Shown here: positions 3,925 through 20,197 of the stretch, piece by piece
Layout: the number at the start of each line of letters is the position of its first letter
How positions within the stretch are numbered: the stretch's first letter is position 1
NCBI GenBank assembly: GCA_013822345.1
Contig: PNKH01000081.1
Span: forward strand, 1 to 35,277
Direction of reading: 5' to 3'
Length of the DNA: 35,277 bases
Source of the DNA: Isosphaera sp.
Lineage (GTDB): Bacteria; Planctomycetota; Planctomycetia; Gemmatales; Gemmataceae
Position numbers and translations under genes: made by a program
The notes under the pieces: generated by a model
Seen by the model: only the letters and a program-made list of their open reading frames with translations
Told to the model about the DNA's origin: nothing
Databases searched by the model: none

Positions 3925-3929
3925 GAAAG

Positions 3930-4334
3930 TGGAGGCGCCGGGAATTGAACCCGGGTCCCGTGGCACTTCCGTGCCGGCATCTACGTGTGTAGCCCGTCGA
4001 TTCCCGGGGTACACCTTGCGGCTACCCCGCGTTCGTCTCCCCGGGCTCCGACGGACAGGATCCCGGGTCGACTATCGGCCAGGTGGTTTAGCGGGAGCCG
4101 CCGCCGAGCCGGGCCGGGTCGTGTCCCCGGCCCTCAGGCGCCCGCGAGCCTGACTTGGCGTCCGGACCACACCCTCTCAGGCGAAGGGTGCGGAACGGCC
4201 CGCGGGTCTTTACGCCGCGAGGGAGAACTGCGGTTCAGCAGTTAGTGTGCGATCAGCTTTTTACGTGGCCGGCTGATCAACCACGACACGCCGCACGAGC
4301 ACTTCCGACGCCCGGTCGATACCAGATCGCCCCC
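3930..4334 (-). ncRNA. ssrA: tmRNA (transfer-messenger RNA), one-piece
   Basis: The RNA rescues stalled ribosomes together with SmpB and adds a degradation tag to the unfinished protein. The 5' end GGGGGCG (4334-4328) pairs with the 3' CGCCTCC (3937-3931) to give a 7-bp acceptor stem whose third pair is G-U, the alanyl-tRNA synthetase identity pair, followed by discriminator A (3930). The T arm reads CCGGG-TTCAATT-CCCGG. The 5' part contains GGTATCGACCGG, matching the conserved tmRNA D-like region, and the 3' part contains the conserved GGCTACACACGTAGATG stretch. CCA is not encoded (the next bases are CTT), so it must be added after processing. At 405 nt it is a normal length for one-piece tmRNA with several pseudoknots. 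A TATAAT box lies just upstream and a strong hairpin just downstream. Confidence 0.95.
4210..4257 (-). other. tmRNA-encoded proteolysis tag, ADRTLTAEPQFSLAA
   Basis: Within ssrA the resume codon is read as GCT at 4257-4255, directly after a TAAAAA stretch, as in many tmRNAs. The frame gives ADRTLTAEPQFSLAA and ends at TAA (4212-4210). The terminal LAA matches the usual ClpXP-recognised ending (ALAA), with Ser in place of the first Ala. The frame was chosen because the neighbouring frame stops after two codons and because of this ending. Confidence 0.85.
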
Positions 4335-7359: not shown

Positions 7360-8601
7360 TCACCGCCGCCCCGGGGCCGCCTCCCACCCCAGCCACCCCT
7401 GCGCCGCCCGCAGCCGCACCCGGGCCTGGTGCCACCCCGACACCTCGGCCGCCACCTCCGCCCGCGCCTTCAGCCACTCCGTCCGCACCTGCGGCTCCGC
7501 GAACTCCGCCCCCGGCTGGTTCGCCTCCTTCTTCCTCACCGCGTCGGCCAACTTCTCCTCCCACCCGGCCAGCCGCTCCCGGGCGAGCCCCACCCGCCCG
7601 GCCGCCGCCGTCACCGCCAGCGCCGCCGCCCGCGCCTCGTCCGCCGCCGACCGCTCCCGCTCCGCCAAGAGCGCGAACAACTGCCCCCGCCGCACCTCCA
7701 GCTCCGCCGCGGCCGACGGGTCCGGCTTCCGCAGCAACAGCAGCCGGACCGGCAGCGGCGCCGGCGACCGGCCGAGGAGCGGGTTGCCGGCCCGCAAGGC
7801 GTCGCGCGCCGCCGGCAGCGTGTCCGGGGTCAGCCCGTGGGCCAACGCCCGCAGCCCCCGCAGCTCCGGCCGGTCGGCCAGCGCCGCCGCGGCCGCCGCC
7901 TCCGGGTCCGCCGGCTTCGGGTCGACGGCGAAGTCACCGACCGGCCACAGCCGCTCCCCGGGCGCCGGCGGCAGACCGAGCCGCCGCTTCAGGTCGACGT
8001 TCAAGAGCCGCGCGGTGTGCTCGGCCCGTTCGAGGTCGGTCACCAGCTGCGACCGCTGCCGCTCCAGGTCGGCGATGTCGAGCGGGAACCGGACGTCCGC
8101 CGCCTTCGCCCGCCTCGCCTTCGCCAGCAAGTCGTCGACCACCGGGAACGTCTGCCGCAGGAGGTCCGCCCGGCACTCGGCGTCGGCCAGTTGGAAGAAC
8201 CGCTCCAGGGCGTCGGCCGCCGCCCGGTTGCGGAGTTCGAGCGCCGCGTGGAACCGGACCGACCGCCGGACCGGCTCGGCCGCCTCGCACCCGGACTCCG
8301 GCGGGACGCGGTTCTCCTCGTCGAGCAGGTTCGCCGCAGTCACGTTCGCCGCCGCCAGGGCCAGGCCGTCCGCTTCCGTCAGCCGGCGGAACGCGGCCCC
8401 GTCCAACTTCCCCGGCTCGCGCGGTGCCGGCCGCGCCGCGCCTTTGCCGTCGAGCACCGGGACCGTCGGGTCGGTGGCGGGGAGGTCGACCGACACCGGG
8501 ACCGCGGACGGGACGGCGGGGCGCGGCGCGACCGGGCACGGGGCGCGGCACCCGGCCGCCGCCACCGCCACCAGCACCCAGACTCGCCCGCACGTCCCCA
8601 T
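7360..8601 (-). CDS. Outer membrane efflux (TolC/OprM-like) lipoprotein
   Basis: Protein of 413 residues from ATG 8601; longer readings would run into the hairpin at 8627-8695 and are rejected. The N-terminus is a lipoprotein signal with lipobox AAAGC (Cys18). The body is long, Ala/Arg/Glu-rich alpha-helix with two related halves. The segments DIADLERQRSQLVTDLERAEHTARLLNVDLKRR in the first half (near residues 200-235) and the ARAAALAVTAAAGRVGLARERL helix in the second half fit outer membrane factors, which form the tunnel of tripartite pumps. It is divergent from the membrane-fusion/ABC genes starting at 8958 and shares their upstream region, which supports a joint role. Sequence similarity in this family is low, so the call rests on composition, the lipobox and context. 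Confidence 0.72.
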   Translation of the reverse strand: MGTCGRVWVLVAVAAAGCRAPCPVAPRPAVPSAVPVSVDLPATDPTVPVLDGKGAARPAPREPGKLDGAAFRRLTEADGLALAAANVTAANLLDEENRVPPESGCEAAEPVRRSVRFHAALELRNRAAADALERFFQLADAECRADLLRQTFPVVDDLLAKARRAKAADVRFPLDIADLERQRSQLVTDLERAEHTARLLNVDLKRRLGLPPAPGERLWPVGDFAVDPKPADPEAAAAAALADRPELRGLRALAHGLTPDTLPAARDALRAGNPLLGRSPAPLPVRLLLLRKPDPSAAAELEVRRGQLFALLAERERSAADEARAAALAVTAAAGRVGLARERLAGWEEKLADAVRKKEANQPGAEFAEPQVRTEWLKARAEVAAEVSGWHQARVRLRAAQGWLGWEAAPGRR

Positions 8602-8626
8602 AACCGCCCTTCGCGCCGTCGGTGCC

Positions 8627-8695
8627 TCGCTCGGTGGGGCAGGCATTCCTGCCTGCCCTTGCTCGGCAGGCAGGAATGCCTGCCCCACCGAGCGA
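8627..8695. repeat. Perfect 31-bp inverted repeat, 7-nt loop
   Basis: Arms 8627-8657 and 8665-8695 are exactly complementary, with CTTGCTC as loop. The core GGGGCAGGCATTCCTGCC is itself partly palindromic. It lies in the shared upstream region of the divergent efflux genes, 26 nt before the ATG at 8601, so it would be in the 5' untranslated region of the outer-membrane-factor mRNA. Confidence 0.93.
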
Positions 8696-8799
8696 AGAAG
8701 CCACCCGCGCCGTCGGTGCCGGTTGAGATCGACCGGCCGGTCCGGGCGGTTTGAGGGAATGACCGGAACGGGGCGATTTTCCCGCCGCGGGCACCGGGG

Positions 8800-8829
8800 T
8801 TGAGTACCGTCGACCGGTCGGACTAGGAT
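8800..8829 (+). promoter_or_regulatory. Possible sigma-70-type promoter for the efflux operon
   Basis: TTGAGT (8800-8805) and TAGGAT (8824-8829) are separated by 18 nt and lie about 130 nt before the membrane-fusion gene. The spacer contains the perfect palindrome CGACCGGTCG (8811-8820), a possible operator. The match is moderate and is unsupported by experiment. Confidence 0.35.
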
Positions 8830-8957
8830 GACCGGGGTGGCGCGGGCGACCCGCCCGGCGGACCGGCCTGGAACCCGCCGGCCTGGTGCGGGGTAAGGAA
8901 CTACTCAGCCTCCGGTTCCGTCCCCTTCGGACGGCCCCGGCCTTGGGAGTGCCATTG

Positions 8958-10193
8958 ATGCCGACCCGGACCGAACCCGACCCGTCCGCGAACGGGGAGC
9001 TGATCGACCGGGTGCAGCAGCTCCGGCTGACGCCCCAGCTCGGGGCCGGCGCCGCAGGAAGCAGCCGGGGGTCGTGGTTGCCGTGGGTGCTGTGCGGGAT
9101 GATGGCGGTGGTGTGGGCCGGGGTCGGGGTGCGGTCGTACCGGACCGCCGGCAAGGCCGACGCCCCGGCCGGCGCGGCCCCCGCCGCCGCCCCGGCCGGC
9201 GCGGCGGCCCAGCCGGCCGCCGCCCAACCGGCCGCCGGCGAGCTGGTGATCCAGATCAAGGGGATCGTCATCCCGTCCCTGCAGATCCAGCTCAGCCCGG
9301 ACGACGTGTCGGGGATCGTGGAGACGATCCACTTCAAGGAGGGCGACCGGGTGGAGAAGGGGAAGGTGCTGGCCCGGATCCGCCCGGACCGGTACCGGAA
9401 CGACGCGGCGGCGGCGAAGGCGGCCCTGACGGCGGCCGAGAACCGCCTGGCCGACCTCGGGAGCGAGGCGGTCCGGGCGGAGGAGCGGCGGCAGGCCCAG
9501 GCCGAGCTGGACGAGGCCGAGGCCGCCCGGGTCCGGGCCGACCTGGAGTTGAAGCGGGTGACCACCGGGCGGGCGGCGACCGTCATCTCGACCCAGGACG
9601 TGGAGCGGGCCGAGGCCGACCTGCGGTCCGCGAAGGCCCGGGTGGAGCGGCTGTCCGCCGCCCTGAACCTCCTGAACATGGGGGCCCGGGTGGAGCGGCT
9701 GGCGGCCGCCCGGGCGGAGGTCGCCCAGGCCAGGGCCCGGCACGGGGAGGCCGAGCGGCTGCTGGCGAACTGCGAGGTCCGGGCCCCGATCGACGGCACC
9801 GTCCTGACCAAGGCGGCCGACCGGGGGACGCTGGTCAGCCCGATGTCGTTCAACGTCGCGTTCGGGATCTGCACCCTGGCCGACCTGTCGCAGCTGGAGG
9901 TCGAGCTGGACGTGCCGGAGCGGCAGATCGAGCGGGTGAAGCCCGGGCAGGCGGTCCTGATCCAGGCCGACGCCGACCCGGGCCGGGCGTACCGCGGGGT
10001 GGTCGACCGGAAGCAGCCGGTCGCCGACGACACCAAGAACGTGGTCCGGGTGCGGGTCCGGGTGTACCTGCCGAAGGGCGAGGTGCCCGGGGTGTTCCTG
10101 AAGCCGAAGATGAGCGTCGTCGCCACCGTGTACAACCGCCCGTTCGCCGCCGACCCGGCCAAGGACGCCCCGTGGGGCGACGAGACGAAGTGA
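8958..10193 (+). CDS. Periplasmic membrane-fusion (HlyD/MacA-type) protein
   Basis: Protein of 411 residues. The ATG at 8958 is preferred over an upstream in-frame start (8886) because GGGAG lies 8 nt before it. One transmembrane helix spans residues 40-58. After an Ala/Pro-rich linker comes a lipoyl-like half (VSGIVETIHFKEGDRVEKGKVL), a long coiled-coil hairpin rich in Ala, Glu and Arg (about 150-260), the second lipoyl half (CEVRAPIDGTVLTKAADRGT) and a beta-barrel region with VELDVPERQIERVKPGQ. This is the classic adaptor order. It joins an inner-membrane ABC transporter to an outer-membrane tunnel. It is the first gene of a plus-strand run with the ATPase and two permeases and is divergent from the outer-membrane factor. 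The substrate is unknown. Confidence 0.9.
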   Translation: MPTRTEPDPSANGELIDRVQQLRLTPQLGAGAAGSSRGSWLPWVLCGMMAVVWAGVGVRSYRTAGKADAPAGAAPAAAPAGAAAQPAAAQPAAGELVIQIKGIVIPSLQIQLSPDDVSGIVETIHFKEGDRVEKGKVLARIRPDRYRNDAAAAKAALTAAENRLADLGSEAVRAEERRQAQAELDEAEAARVRADLELKRVTTGRAATVISTQDVERAEADLRSAKARVERLSAALNLLNMGARVERLAAARAEVAQARARHGEAERLLANCEVRAPIDGTVLTKAADRGTLVSPMSFNVAFGICTLADLSQLEVELDVPERQIERVKPGQAVLIQADADPGRAYRGVVDRKQPVADDTKNVVRVRVRVYLPKGEVPGVFLKPKMSVVATVYNRPFAADPAKDAPWGDETK

Positions 10194-16426: not shown

Positions 16427-18142
16427 ATGTTCCGCCGACTCCTCCCGCTCCCCCTGTTCCTCGCCGCGGCGGCCGCCGTCGCCCAGGACGGCAAGCAACC
16501 CGCCGCCGTCCCGAAGGGCGACACGTTCACCTTCACGTTCGACGCCAGCAAGGTGTTCCCCGGGACGACCCGGACCGTCACCGTGTACGTCCCGAAGCAG
16601 TACGACGGGAAGACCCCGGCGTGCGTGTACGTCAACCAGGACGGGCTGCCGGGGTACGTCCCCCCGACGTTCGACAAACTCATCGCCGAGAAGGCGATGC
16701 CGGTCACCATCGCGGTCGGGATCACCCCCGGGGTGGTGAAGGAGGCCCGCAAGGACGCCCTGCCGCGGTACAACCGGAGCTTCGAGTACGACGGCCTCGG
16801 GGACGCCTACGCCCGCCTGGTCCTCGACGAGGTGTTGCCGGCGGTCGAGTCGAAGGCCGCCCCCGGGGACCGGAAGCTCGTGCTGTCGAAGAAGGGGGCG
16901 GACCGGGCGATCGGCGGGGCGTCGAGCGGGGCGATCTGCGCGTTCACCGCCGCGTGGGAGCGGCCGGACGCGTTCACCCGGGTGTTCAGCACCATCGGCA
17001 CCTACGTGGGTTTGCGCGGCGGGGACGGGTACCCGACCCTGGTCCGGAAGTTCGAGCCGAAGCCGCTGCGCGTCTACCTGCAGGACGGGAGCAAGGACCT
17101 GAACATTTACGGCGGGGACTGGTGGATGGCGAACCAGACGATGGAGCGGGCGCTGGCGTTCGCCGGGTACGAGGTGAAGCACTCGTGGAACGACGGCGGG
17201 CACAACGGCGGGCTGGCCGCCGGGGTGTTCCCGGAGGCGATGGCGTTCCTGTGGAAGGACTGGCCGGAGGCCCCGAGGGCCGGGCTGGGGTCGTCGCAGA
17301 TGAAGGAGATCCTGATCCCGGGCGAGGGGTGGCGGCTCGTCGGCGAGGGGTACAAGTTCACCGAGGGGCCGGCGACGAACGCCAAGGGCGAGGTGTTCTT
17401 CAACGACGTGGGGGGCAGCAAGACGTACCGGGTGGTGGACGGCAAGCCGGCGGTGTTCCTGGCCGACTCGAAGCGCGGCGACGGCCAGCGGTTCGGCCCG
17501 GACGGCCGGCTGTACGCGAACGCCGCGGCCGAGAGCAAGATCCTGGCGTGGGACGCGGACGGGAAGGCGACCGAGTTCGCGGCCGGGTTCAAGGGGAACG
17601 ACCTGGTGGTGCTCCACAACGGCTCGGTCTACGCCACCGACCCGTTCGAGACGGCGGGGAACAGCAAGGTGTACCACGTCTCGCCGAAGGGCGAGAAGAA
17701 GGTGGTCGACACCGGGCTGAAGTTCGCGAACGGGATCACCGTGTCGCCGGACCAGACGCTGCTGTACGTCGCCGACAGCCGGACGCACTGGGTGTACAGC
17801 TACCAGATCCGGGACGACGGGTCGCTGGCCTACAAGCAGAAGTACTACCACCTGCACGTCCACGACCGGGACGACGACAGCGGGGCGGACGGGTTGCGGT
17901 GCGACCGGGACGGCCGGCTGTGGGTGGCGACGCGGCTGGGGCTGCAGGTGTGCGACCAGGCCGGGCGGGTGAACTGCGTCATCCCGACGCCGAACGGGCG
18001 GGTGTCGAACCTGACGTTCGGCGGGCCGGACGGGGACATCCTCTACGCGACGTGCGGGGACAAGGTGTACAGCCGGAAGGTGCGGGTGAAGGGGGCGAAC
18101 GCGTTCGAGCCGCCGTTCGCCCCGGCGAAGCCGAAGTTGTGA
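16427..18142 (+). CDS. Exported esterase fused to an SMP-30/gluconolactonase-like propeller
   Basis: Protein of 571 residues starting at ATG 16427 with a signal peptide ending near AVAQ (about residue 20). Residues 30-285 resemble the Esterase D/enterochelin-esterase alpha/beta hydrolase family: TVTVYVPKQYDGKTPACVYV, nucleophile box GGASSGA (Ser166 in GASSG), an acidic turn at YLQDGSKDLN and a His in NDGGHNGG. Residues 300-571 resemble SMP-30/gluconolactonase six-bladed propellers: GYKFTEGPATNAKGEVFFNDV, FGPDGRLYA, FANGITVSPDQTLLYVADS, GADGLRCDRDGRLWVAT and NLTFGGPDGDILYAT. The first half may cleave an ester and the second a lactone, both on sugar derivatives, in the periplasm. Substrates are unknown. 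Only 21 bp separate it from the DUF4365 gene. Confidence 0.88.
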   Translation: MFRRLLPLPLFLAAAAAVAQDGKQPAAVPKGDTFTFTFDASKVFPGTTRTVTVYVPKQYDGKTPACVYVNQDGLPGYVPPTFDKLIAEKAMPVTIAVGITPGVVKEARKDALPRYNRSFEYDGLGDAYARLVLDEVLPAVESKAAPGDRKLVLSKKGADRAIGGASSGAICAFTAAWERPDAFTRVFSTIGTYVGLRGGDGYPTLVRKFEPKPLRVYLQDGSKDLNIYGGDWWMANQTMERALAFAGYEVKHSWNDGGHNGGLAAGVFPEAMAFLWKDWPEAPRAGLGSSQMKEILIPGEGWRLVGEGYKFTEGPATNAKGEVFFNDVGGSKTYRVVDGKPAVFLADSKRGDGQRFGPDGRLYANAAAESKILAWDADGKATEFAAGFKGNDLVVLHNGSVYATDPFETAGNSKVYHVSPKGEKKVVDTGLKFANGITVSPDQTLLYVADSRTHWVYSYQIRDDGSLAYKQKYYHLHVHDRDDDSGADGLRCDRDGRLWVATRLGLQVCDQAGRVNCVIPTPNGRVSNLTFGGPDGDILYATCGDKVYSRKVRVKGANAFEPPFAPAKPKL

Positions 18143-18163: not shown

Positions 18164-18670
18164 ATGACCGACGAGCACCGCATGGAGCAGTTGTCGCGGG
18201 CCTACGCCCAGGCCGTCGCGGCCGTCGCCGGGTGCACGTGGTCCGCGCCGGAGCCGGACTACGGGGTGGACCTGACCGTCCGCCGGGTCGGCCGGCGGGC
18301 GGGTCGGTACCTGCCCGTCGGCCGGGCGGTCGACCTGCAGCTCAAGAGCACGGCGGCGGGCGTCCCCGGACCGGACCACGTCGGGTACGACCTGGACATG
18401 CGGGTCTACGACCTCCTCCGCCGGGCGACCCGGGCGGCGCCCGCCCTCCTGATCCTGTACGTCCTCCCGGCGGACCCGGCCGACTGGCTCGACCAAACGG
18501 AAGAGCGGCTCCTGCTCCGCGGGTGTGCGTACTGGCTGTCCCTCCGGGGCGAGCCCGCGTCGGCGAACACGAGCACCATCCGGGTGTGGGTTCCGCGCGC
18601 GAACGCCTTTACCCCCGCGGCACTCGGGCGGATAATGGATGCCGCCGGCCGCGGAGAGGACTTGTCATGA
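18164..18670 (+). CDS. DUF4365-type PD-(D/E)xK nuclease-like protein
   Basis: Protein of 168 residues. The start is ATG 18164 (a second ATG at 18182 is possible). The sequence follows the DUF4365 pattern: a helix near the start (AYAQAVAAVAGC), then PEPDYGVDLTV, VDLQLKST, a YDL...YDLLRRA stretch, PALLILYVLP, LLLRGCAYWLSLRGEP and a final VWVPRANAFTP. Asp36 in YGVD and Gln59-x-Lys61 in QLK fit the D...QxK active site of restriction-endonuclease-fold enzymes, as in Mrr-like nucleases. The family is widespread, and I know of no settled function; nuclease or defence roles are inferred. Its stop codon overlaps the start of the 95-residue gene (ATGA), so the pair is translationally coupled. Upstream it follows the esterase gene by 21 bp. 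Codon use is like that of the neighbours. Confidence 0.82.
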   Translation: MTDEHRMEQLSRAYAQAVAAVAGCTWSAPEPDYGVDLTVRRVGRRAGRYLPVGRAVDLQLKSTAAGVPGPDHVGYDLDMRVYDLLRRATRAAPALLILYVLPADPADWLDQTEERLLLRGCAYWLSLRGEPASANTSTIRVWVPRANAFTPAALGRIMDAAGRGEDLS

Positions 18671-18954
18671 CCCCGACGACGCTCCCGAGCCCGACCGCCA
18701 TCCGGACCTACCTCGCCGCCCGCGGGTGGAGCGAACGGCCCGCCGCCGACGGCCTGGGGGTGGTGTTCGACTACCGGGACGTGGACGACGACGGGAACCC
18801 GATCACGGTGTTCGTCCCGGCCCGCCCGGCCGACGACTACCCGCTCCGCGTCGCCGACATCGTGGACACCGTCTCGGCCGTCGAGGGCCGTACCCGGGAC
18901 GCCGTCGAGGCCGACCTCGCCCGGGGCGCGGCCGCAGTCCCGCCCCAGCTCTGA
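18667..18954 (+). CDS. Small acidic partner protein coupled to DUF4365
   Basis: Protein of 95 residues. ATG 18667 overlaps the upstream stop by 4 nt (ATGA). It starts with a helical segment, IRTYLAARGWSE, followed by a short beta region (GVVFDYRDVDDDGNPITVFVPAR) and a helical tail (RVADIVDTVSAVEGRT). It is acidic (many Asp and Glu) with no Cys. The shape (YLxxxGW, then VFVPxxP..DYxLRxxDxVxxLAxxEGR) recalls small proteins that I have seen beside DUF4365 genes in other phyla, though this is from memory only. An inhibitor or partner of the nuclease-like protein is an obvious hypothesis, as in toxin-antitoxin pairs, but nothing in the sequence proves it. Confidence 0.75.
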   Translation: MTPTTLPSPTAIRTYLAARGWSERPAADGLGVVFDYRDVDDDGNPITVFVPARPADDYPLRVADIVDTVSAVEGRTRDAVEADLARGAAAVPPQL

Positions 18955-18963
18955 CGGTCCCCG

Positions 18964-19158
18964 TCACCGCTTCGGCGGCAGCCGGCCGCGCCGCCGCGCC
19001 CACTCCTCTTCTTCCCGCCGCAGGTTCCGTCGCACCCACAGCACGACCAGCCCCAGCACCCCGGCCAGGCCGAGGATCCCCAACAGGATGCCGACCGCGA
19101 CCGGGTCGCCGTCGCCCAGCCGCCGGAAGAACTCCCCGAGCGCCCGCAGGTTCTGCAT
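18964..19158 (-). CDS. Small single-pass membrane protein
   Basis: Protein of 64 residues. A strong ribosome binding site (GGAGGGGAGGGG) stands directly before ATG 19158. Residues 20-42 (PVAVGILLGILGLAGVLGLVVLW) form one transmembrane helix, followed by a very basic and acidic tail (RRNLRREEEEWARRRGR). Positive-inside logic places the C-terminus in the cytoplasm. It ends 9 bp from the stop of the convergent 95-residue gene. No family is recognised. Confidence 0.7.
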   Translation of the reverse strand: MQNLRALGEFFRRLGDGDPVAVGILLGILGLAGVLGLVVLWVRRNLRREEEEWARRRGRLPPKR

Positions 19159-19237: not shown

Positions 19238-20197
19238 ATGACCCGCCTCCGCGTCCTGCTCCTCCCGCTCCTCCTCGCCGGGTGTCAGAAGAAGAACACC
19301 GCCCCGACCCCGCCCGGCGGCCCCGGGCCGGACGACGCCGCGACCACGCTCGTTGAGGCGCGCCGCGGGTTCGCCACCAAACTCGCCCGCCAAGTCCGGG
19401 CGGGCGAGCCGGTCCCGGCCCCGCCGCCGCACGTCTTCCGCAAGGTGACTTACGACGCCCCGACCGGGCAGCTGGCCGCGTACCTCACCCCGGACCCGGG
19501 CGACGGGAAGAAGCGGCCGGCGGTCGTCTGGGTCACCGGCGGGGACTGCAACTCGATCGGGGACGCCGCGTGGTCCCCGGCGAAGGCGTCGAACGACCAG
19601 TCGGCCCGCCAGTACCGGGAGGCGGGGTTCGTCATGATGTTCCCGTCGCTCCGGGGCGGGAACGACAACCCGGGGGTGCAGGAGGGGTGCTACGGCGAGG
19701 TGGACGACGTGCTCGCGGCCGCCGACCACCTGGCGAAGCAGCCGCACGTCGACCCGGACCGGATCTACCTCGGCGGGCACAGCACCGGCGGGACGCTGGT
19801 GCTGCTGGTGGCCGCGTCGACGGACCGGTTCCGGGCGGTGTTCTCGTTCGGCCCGGCGGACACGATCGCCCACTACCCGCCGGACTTCACCGCCCCGGTG
19901 AACACGGCCGACCGGCGGGAGGTCGACCTGCGGTCGCCGGGCAAGTGGCTCCACTCGGTCAAGTGCCCGACGTTCGTGTTCGAGGGGGCGGTGGACGGGA
20001 ACGCCGCCGACCTGCGGGCGATGAAGGGGCGGTCGACCAACCCGAGGGTGCAGTTCTTCGTGGTGGCCGGGGCGGACCACTTCAGCGTGCTGGCCCCGGT
20101 GAACGCGCTGATCGCGGCGAAGATCGCCCGGGACGACGGCCCGGAGACGGAGCTGTCGTTCACCGACGCCGAGGTGAACTGGGCGGTGCGGAAGTGA
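19238..20197 (+). CDS. Alpha/beta hydrolase lipoprotein (prolyl-oligopeptidase/dienelactone hydrolase-like)
   Basis: Protein of 319 residues from ATG 19238. The longer reading from 19088 would be a non-coding leader. The lipoprotein signal is MTRLRVLLLPLLLAGC (Cys16). The hydrolase core shows PAVVWVTGGDCNSIGD (oxyanion region), the nucleophile elbow YLGGHSTGGTLVLL (Ser in GHSTG), KCPTFVFEGAVDG (acid region) and VAGADHFSV (His). This matches S9-like or dienelactone-hydrolase-like enzymes. The substrate is unknown; the lipid anchor suggests a periplasmic or outer-envelope location. Its stop overlaps the ATG of the next, broken hydrolase (TGATG), so the two were once translationally coupled. Confidence 0.88.
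   Translation: MTRLRVLLLPLLLAGCQKKNTAPTPPGGPGPDDAATTLVEARRGFATKLARQVRAGEPVPAPPPHVFRKVTYDAPTGQLAAYLTPDPGDGKKRPAVVWVTGGDCNSIGDAAWSPAKASNDQSARQYREAGFVMMFPSLRGGNDNPGVQEGCYGEVDDVLAAADHLAKQPHVDPDRIYLGGHSTGGTLVLLVAASTDRFRAVFSFGPADTIAHYPPDFTAPVNTADRREVDLRSPGKWLHSVKCPTFVFEGAVDGNAADLRAMKGRSTNPRVQFFVVAGADHFSVLAPVNALIAAKIARDDGPETELSFTDAEVNWAVRK

Follow-up and report, generated by a model that had tools for sequence, protein, structure and literature searches.

Two overlapping genes in the window, as we call the whole 35,277-nucleotide stretch of Isosphaera sp. DNA analysed here, likely form a coupled, mobile module of a nuclease (gene A) and a small adaptor (gene B). On balance we lean towards reading the pair as a minimal, mobile form of PDC-M02, in which a dormant nuclease would be gated by a small adaptor and the usual sensor parts would be absent. 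PDC-M02 is a widespread catalogued candidate phage-defence system, and the window pair would be its stripped-down form. Among relatives, gene B occurs in three builds that separate a constant core (the nuclease plus the amino-terminal domain of B) from an optional middle domain and OB fold. Being small, the window pair lends itself to asking whether binding, gating and firing of the nuclease need more than the core, and whether sensing is the task of the OB half. Through it, an Argonaute-free module is also linked to the DREN nucleases known from SPARDA.

Layout, family and predicted fold

The two genes together encode 263 residues (Table 1). The first-pass annotation of this DNA had described a 4-nt ATGA overlap between them, residues D36, Q59 and K61 in a DUF4365 protein, and a small acidic partner, and each of these was found in the sequence. 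The overlap likely couples translation of B to that of A, and a probable ribosome-binding site lies inside A, seven bases before the B start as read from the sequence. The computed pI of B is 4.33 and its net charge is −6. While B is therefore small and acidic as described, the comparison with typical stand-alone inhibitors did not hold, because B corresponds to one domain, the amino-terminal one, of a protein whose usual length is ~380 aa.

Table 1. Features of the gene pair and its flanks, in window coordinates
Feature	Position	Strand	Basis
Gene A, DUF4365 / PDC-M02A nuclease-like, 168 aa	18164..18670	+	Pfam, PADLOC, residue conservation, homologue fold
Gene B, 95-aa short PDC-M02B, amino-terminal domain only	18667..18954	+	PADLOC, W21/P51 conservation
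ATGA shared by the end of A and the start of B	18667..18670	+	sequence; same 4-nt overlap in 61/76 pairs
GGAGAGG inside A, probable ribosome-binding site of B	18653..18659	+	read from sequence
Esterase/SGL fusion, left flank, outside the pair; ends 21 nt before A	16427..18142	+	Pfam; same-genus orthologues
Alpha/beta hydrolase, right flank, outside the pair	19238..20197	+	Pfam; same-genus matches
Small membrane-type protein, 64 aa, convergent with B	18964..19158	-	same-genus homologues

The neighbours had been described as not being known defence genes, and Pfam and the sequence agree: one encodes the esterase/SGL fusion, the other a small protein that contains a membrane-like stretch. We considered the latter as a third gene of the module and dropped it, since its homologues occur elsewhere without an adjoining pair. 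Of 18 other same-genus genomes, five have such a homologue, in no case next to such a pair, and a search across 163 loci returned nothing better than E 0.16 except the window's own copies. The 64-aa gene is probably outside the pair. Elsewhere in the window lies a tmRNA gene (3927-4334, minus strand; tag AEPQFSLAA).

The protein encoded by gene A matches Pfam DUF4365 (PF14280) with 70.1 bits (E 2.6e-19; cut-off 24.3) and PADLOC PDC-M02A with E 9.1e-47 over profile positions 1-165 of 167. B matches PADLOC PDC-M02B with E 4.2e-14, over profile positions 4-83 of 364 only. The M02B profiles matched by B have 270-412 positions, mostly 364-412. By these matches the pair belongs to a candidate defence system that is already catalogued, although its second protein is much shortened, and so the claim that such a pair is undescribed has to be corrected: PADLOC already lists candidate PDC-M02. 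A literature search found no paper naming PDC-M02 and no experiment on any of its members. The window pair resembles PDC-M02 in nuclease family, gene order, coupling and the amino-terminal domain of B, but full-length M02B carries a middle domain and an OB fold, and window B has neither. Against NCBIfam, neither protein had a match at E up to 5.

The putative catalytic residues of A do not vary freely among relatives. In an alignment of 76 A sequences, D36 and Q59 are each present in 76/76 rows and K61 in 75/76, the sole exception being L023, a short-form locus with R in its place. In NbaSPARDA the catalytic residues are D41, Q60 and K62, and activity was abolished by D41A and Q60A and impaired by K62A, as given in the excerpted text of that report (PMC12205087). 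A DUF4365 effector of a contractile injection system, EAT16, carries the motif DxGxD...QxK; the excerpt of its source lists activity against E. coli and a loss on mutation of three of four conserved motif residues (PMC11297309). A resembles EAT16 in its DUF4365 domain and in this motif, which reads DYGVD...QLK in the window. However, EAT16 is an injected toxin of two domains, while A has a single domain and a coupled partner gene.

The fold was examined on a homologue, L036, an in-frame A-B fusion of 343 aa from a cyanobacterium (8001-9032) whose A part is ~40% identical to window A. This fusion could be genuine or an assembly error. Its AlphaFold2 model (pLDDT 90.0, pTM 0.66) was built from an alignment whose composition was selected among several so that rows lie in the correct half; at this pTM it gives no reliable A-B interface. 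The top twelve Foldseek matches of the model were all SPARDA chains (E 1.3e-7 to 3.2e-5). With VIA-align, six SPARDA entries contributed chains that match 135-140 residues of the A part at Z 11.1-13.6, and lower-scoring matches were archaeal Hjc resolvases (Z up to 10.3) and I-Ssp6803I (9.2). A search of solved structures by sequence with the A profile gave no meaningful hit, the best being glycerol kinases at E 0.84 and weaker.

Prediction thus supports a PD-(D/E)xK fold for A, as the first-pass annotation had proposed from the D...QxK pattern; the catalytic residues are near-invariant, and the fold is backed on the homologue rather than on the window protein. A is likely a DNA-cutting enzyme. 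With SPARDA it shares, through its homologue, the same fold and the same D...QxK catalytic pattern, but in SPARDA the nuclease is fused to APAZ and works with Argonaute, whereas A is unfused and has another partner. No Argonaute or APAZ was found at the locus among the domains scanned: A has DUF4365 only, B has no Pfam family, and three neighbours were scanned. The excerpted text on a DUF4365-APAZ protein with a short Argonaute describes nonspecific DNA degradation by this complex once it is activated (PMC10810196).

Gene B across relatives, and probable mobility of the pair

To describe the pair among relatives, we scanned a genome collection with the A profile and kept 80 of 140 relatives. 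B sequence adjoins A, in the order A then B, at all 80 kept loci, so the gene order of the proposed two-gene module is conserved. At 73 loci B was assigned by rule (an ORF of at least 90 aa starting between -30 and +10 of the A stop) and at seven by eye, namely the L036 fusion, five loci with a stop inside A, and L079 with a different start. B is broken too at one of the five, L034. Because the rule fixes a window for the B start, some overlap is built in, but the exact figure of 4 is not: exactly 4 nt were shared in 61 of 76 measured pairs (the 73 rule-based pairs, the window, L003 and L011).

The A tree and alignment leave out seven of the 80 loci (L034, L050, L075, L076 and L099, with an in-frame stop, and the incomplete L080 and L087), and the B alignment also leaves out seven (L034, L036, L050, L075, L076, L079 and L099). 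Both add the window, L003 and L011. An eleventh short-type locus, L008, has an incomplete A and falls outside both alignments.

Three builds of B were distinguished among the 76 rows. The long build, with amino-terminal domain, middle domain and OB fold, accounts for 47/76 (at least 260 aa, mostly ~370-395). The medium build of 177-191 aa is without the middle domain (19/76, all 19 of them cyanobacterial), a layout checked against the long-B profile on one protein, from a Nostoc plasmid, which matched positions 1-89 and 297-378 with nothing between. The short build consists of the amino-terminal domain only (10/76, 95-132 aa); seven of the ten are in Planctomycetota-named records, and the other three comprise the window pair plus two loci from a genome of the same genus. 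W21 and P51 are each present in 76/76 B rows, even though these rows were chosen by position.

Pfam returned no match for window B at E up to 1, nor for two long B proteins, and one long B had no hit in a search of solved structures by sequence. The structure of the long B of L068 was predicted with pLDDT 92.6 and pTM 0.85. Its last ~85 residues match OB folds in the VIA list (SilF Z 10.6, SSB 9.2, PriB 8.4), and an OB fold at the end of the longer B proteins, seen on two relatives, is supported by prediction. Foldseek found nothing for this model at E up to 0.001, the best match being 4.2e-3. Since the Foldseek and VIA lists contain almost only the OB part, they barely cover the middle and amino-terminal domains.

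We asked whether the missing domains of window B are supplied from elsewhere in the genome, and dropped this candidate: the long-B profile found no second match in the window's genome (95.2% complete) at E up to 10.

The amino-terminal domain of B may be related to HicA, although the relation is suggestive only. In the long-B model this domain has the order helix-strand-strand-strand-helix, and hhalign gave a probability of 68-81% against HicA over 37 columns only. The HicA profile was made from 10 of 15 fetched loci, those with an internal stop or a partial match being left out. The comparison scored 26.9, against a maximum of 13.9 among 200 column shuffles of HicA (0/200 reached the score) and of 14.9 among controls with the second partner family described below and four stretches of A and B; a further control, the adjoining stretch of B, into which the rows of the amino-terminal domain themselves reach, scored 22.8. 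At the column aligned with what we take to be the catalytic histidine of HicA, window B has V, and around this column, at positions 31-33 of window B, the eight commonest residues do not include His. The pair is thus like HicAB in the weak profile similarity of B and its order of elements (in the long-B model), and unlike it in that B is without the catalytic His column and its partner is a nuclease-like DUF4365 protein rather than HicB.

A and the amino-terminal domain of B have a common history: a mirror-tree comparison of their distances over 74 rows gave r 0.88, against a top value of 0.20 in 500 permutations. In the A tree, the ten short rows fall within a supported set of 15 rows that also holds five long forms (100/98). 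The short label requires two changes on this tree, and just one in 5% of 200 bootstrap trees; a single origin of the short form is possible. For seven pairs of short loci, NG86 dN/dS was ~0.1-0.3 for A and ~0.2-0.5 for B, ratios that are rough because dS exceeded 1 in 5/7 A and 6/7 B comparisons. Both short genes look constrained, and B, while evolving faster than A, does not resemble a remnant released from constraint.

The pair looks like a mobile insertion. An orthologue of the left-flank esterase (at least 80% identity) was found in 10 of 18 other same-genus genomes, with the pair beside none of them. In seven of these ten (G008, G009, G010, G011, G013, G014 and G016) the esterase is followed by a match to the hydrolase after 93-357 nt, an interval too short for A and B, which indicates that the site is empty in these genomes. 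No A match was found anywhere in six of the seven; the two in G016 lie at other places. The corresponding interval in the window is 1,098 nt and contains A, B and the small membrane-type gene. Because the short intervals differ among genomes, the ends of the insertion cannot be fixed.

Relatives of A are sparsely distributed and also occur on mobile elements. In a Planctomycetota sample, A was found at E 1e-10 in 6 of 294 genomes; apart from the window's own genome these are five that have a long B. A genus-weighted sample gave an A match at E 1e-3 in 10 of 59 genomes, and some of these matches belong to the distant second family. A-type relatives were found in 26 of 72,556 plasmid records and in 4 of 50,697 phage records. 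The four phage records represent two temperate phages or prophages, one prophage type and phage LE1, each occurring twice. In four plasmid and phage records that we inspected, a long or medium B directly follows A; the A of the Methylobacterium plasmid rests on a tblastn match. In IMG/VR, one viral contig carries a long B together with the final third of A.

In a Mycobacterium abscessus prophage (L131:398-2160), a long-form pair makes up genes 1 and 2 at the record end, and prophage record ends are a usual site of accessory genes. The planctomycete isolate SCN18_26_2_15_R2_P_68_10 has three pairs, two short and one long (L022, L027 and L068).

Near neighbours of short pairs (ten scanned) comprised seven with metabolic or structural Pfam families and three without a match. 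We called 85 neighbour ORFs at seven short loci by G+C at codon positions, of which nine were A or B and the other 76 were scanned with PADLOC. The matches listed, which cover 25 of 41 matched families, were PD-T4-6, mad6, a kinase profile and MkoA, with two members each, and we took all of them for ordinary protein kinases. We dropped the idea that the short pair sits inside a defence island, as only kinase-type profiles were among the matches listed for these seven loci.

Proposed mechanism and competing explanations

In the mechanism we propose, A would be a DREN/DUF4365 nuclease with a D...QxK active site, and B a small adaptor that may have a HicA-like fold, minus the catalytic histidine of HicA. 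Coupled translation would let A and B assemble together, and B would keep A gated. Most relatives have a longer B that also includes the middle domain and OB fold, which are presumably the trigger sensors. The window pair is without these domains and may have no sensor, so that detecting the trigger would fall to the A-B core or to some unrelated factor of the host. Once triggered, A would cut nucleic acid, and the infected cell would be stopped or the invading DNA destroyed. In this mechanism the physical A-B complex, the gating, the trigger and the role in defence are inferred; the suggestion of phage defence draws on the filing of the family, its mobility and its kinship with SPARDA.

B might restrain A or enable it. 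The excerpted report on SPARDA describes its nuclease (DREN) domain alone as a monomer with undetectable activity (PMC12205087). Because a homologous domain is inactive alone, the partner may activate A rather than restrain it, which suggests that B is more than an antitoxin.

This bears on a competing explanation, in which the pair is a toxin-antitoxin module without antiviral sensing, A being a nuclease toxin and B its dedicated inhibitor. We regard it as possible but unlikely. The small acidic partner, the tight coupling and the mobile, patchy occurrence of the pair would all suit it, as would the listed activity of EAT16, also a DUF4365 protein, against E. coli in the excerpt cited above (PMC11297309). 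However, if A resembles the DREN domain of SPARDA, for which the excerpt reports undetectable activity in isolation (PMC12205087), an inhibitor may be unneeded. The domain found in B is, moreover, usually part of a larger protein (medium or long in 66/76). The nuclease gene also comes first in the pair; in toxin-antitoxin pairs the antitoxin gene is more often first.

Less probable still is that the window pair is a remnant, once a full PDC-M02 system, which after loss of the sensor half is now in decay or has been turned to another use. The grouping of the ten short forms with five long forms in the supported 15-row set is what such a loss could leave, and a stop inside A at five other loci and the R in place of K61 in the short-form A of L023 could be signs of decay. 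Against this, the ten short loci are diverged and have intact frames, with D and Q in 10/10, and their dN/dS is below 1 where measured.

We consider it very improbable that the pair is an accessory of DNA repair or recombination, with A an Hjc-like junction enzyme and B an aid to DNA binding: the fold of A does also match archaeal Hjc, and longer B proteins have an OB domain resembling SSB and PriB, but SPARDA nucleases score higher, the pair is rare, also found on plasmids and prophages and absent from the same site in relatives, and window B is without the OB domain.

Our preferred reading, the minimal PDC-M02 form, could be extended to a bolder proposal that we hold to be doubtful. A HicA-like fold that has lost its RNase site would serve as a universal clamp for the DREN nuclease, with sensor halves added or removed, and the planctomycete short form would be the smallest self-sufficient defence unit, in which the complex of clamp and nuclease does the sensing.

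Other DUF4365 genes in the same genome

The window's genome contains a second, different DUF4365 gene (G000 C70:16724-17131, minus strand), followed by its own partner at 16444-16680 on the same strand, with kin at L009, L010 and L013. We examined this ~79-aa partner as a relative of B, using a profile from 8 of 9 fetched loci, and dropped it: hhalign gave 1.5-20%, and 2 of 200 shuffles reached the score. Its own profile similarity to HicA is clearer (hhalign 84-91%). The partner was found in 7 of 59 related genomes, and a frame bearing QxK lies just upstream of it at 6 of 8 loci checked. A third DUF4365 match in the window's genome, G000 C7:67336-67671 (minus strand), scores 30.1 bits, above the Pfam cut-off.
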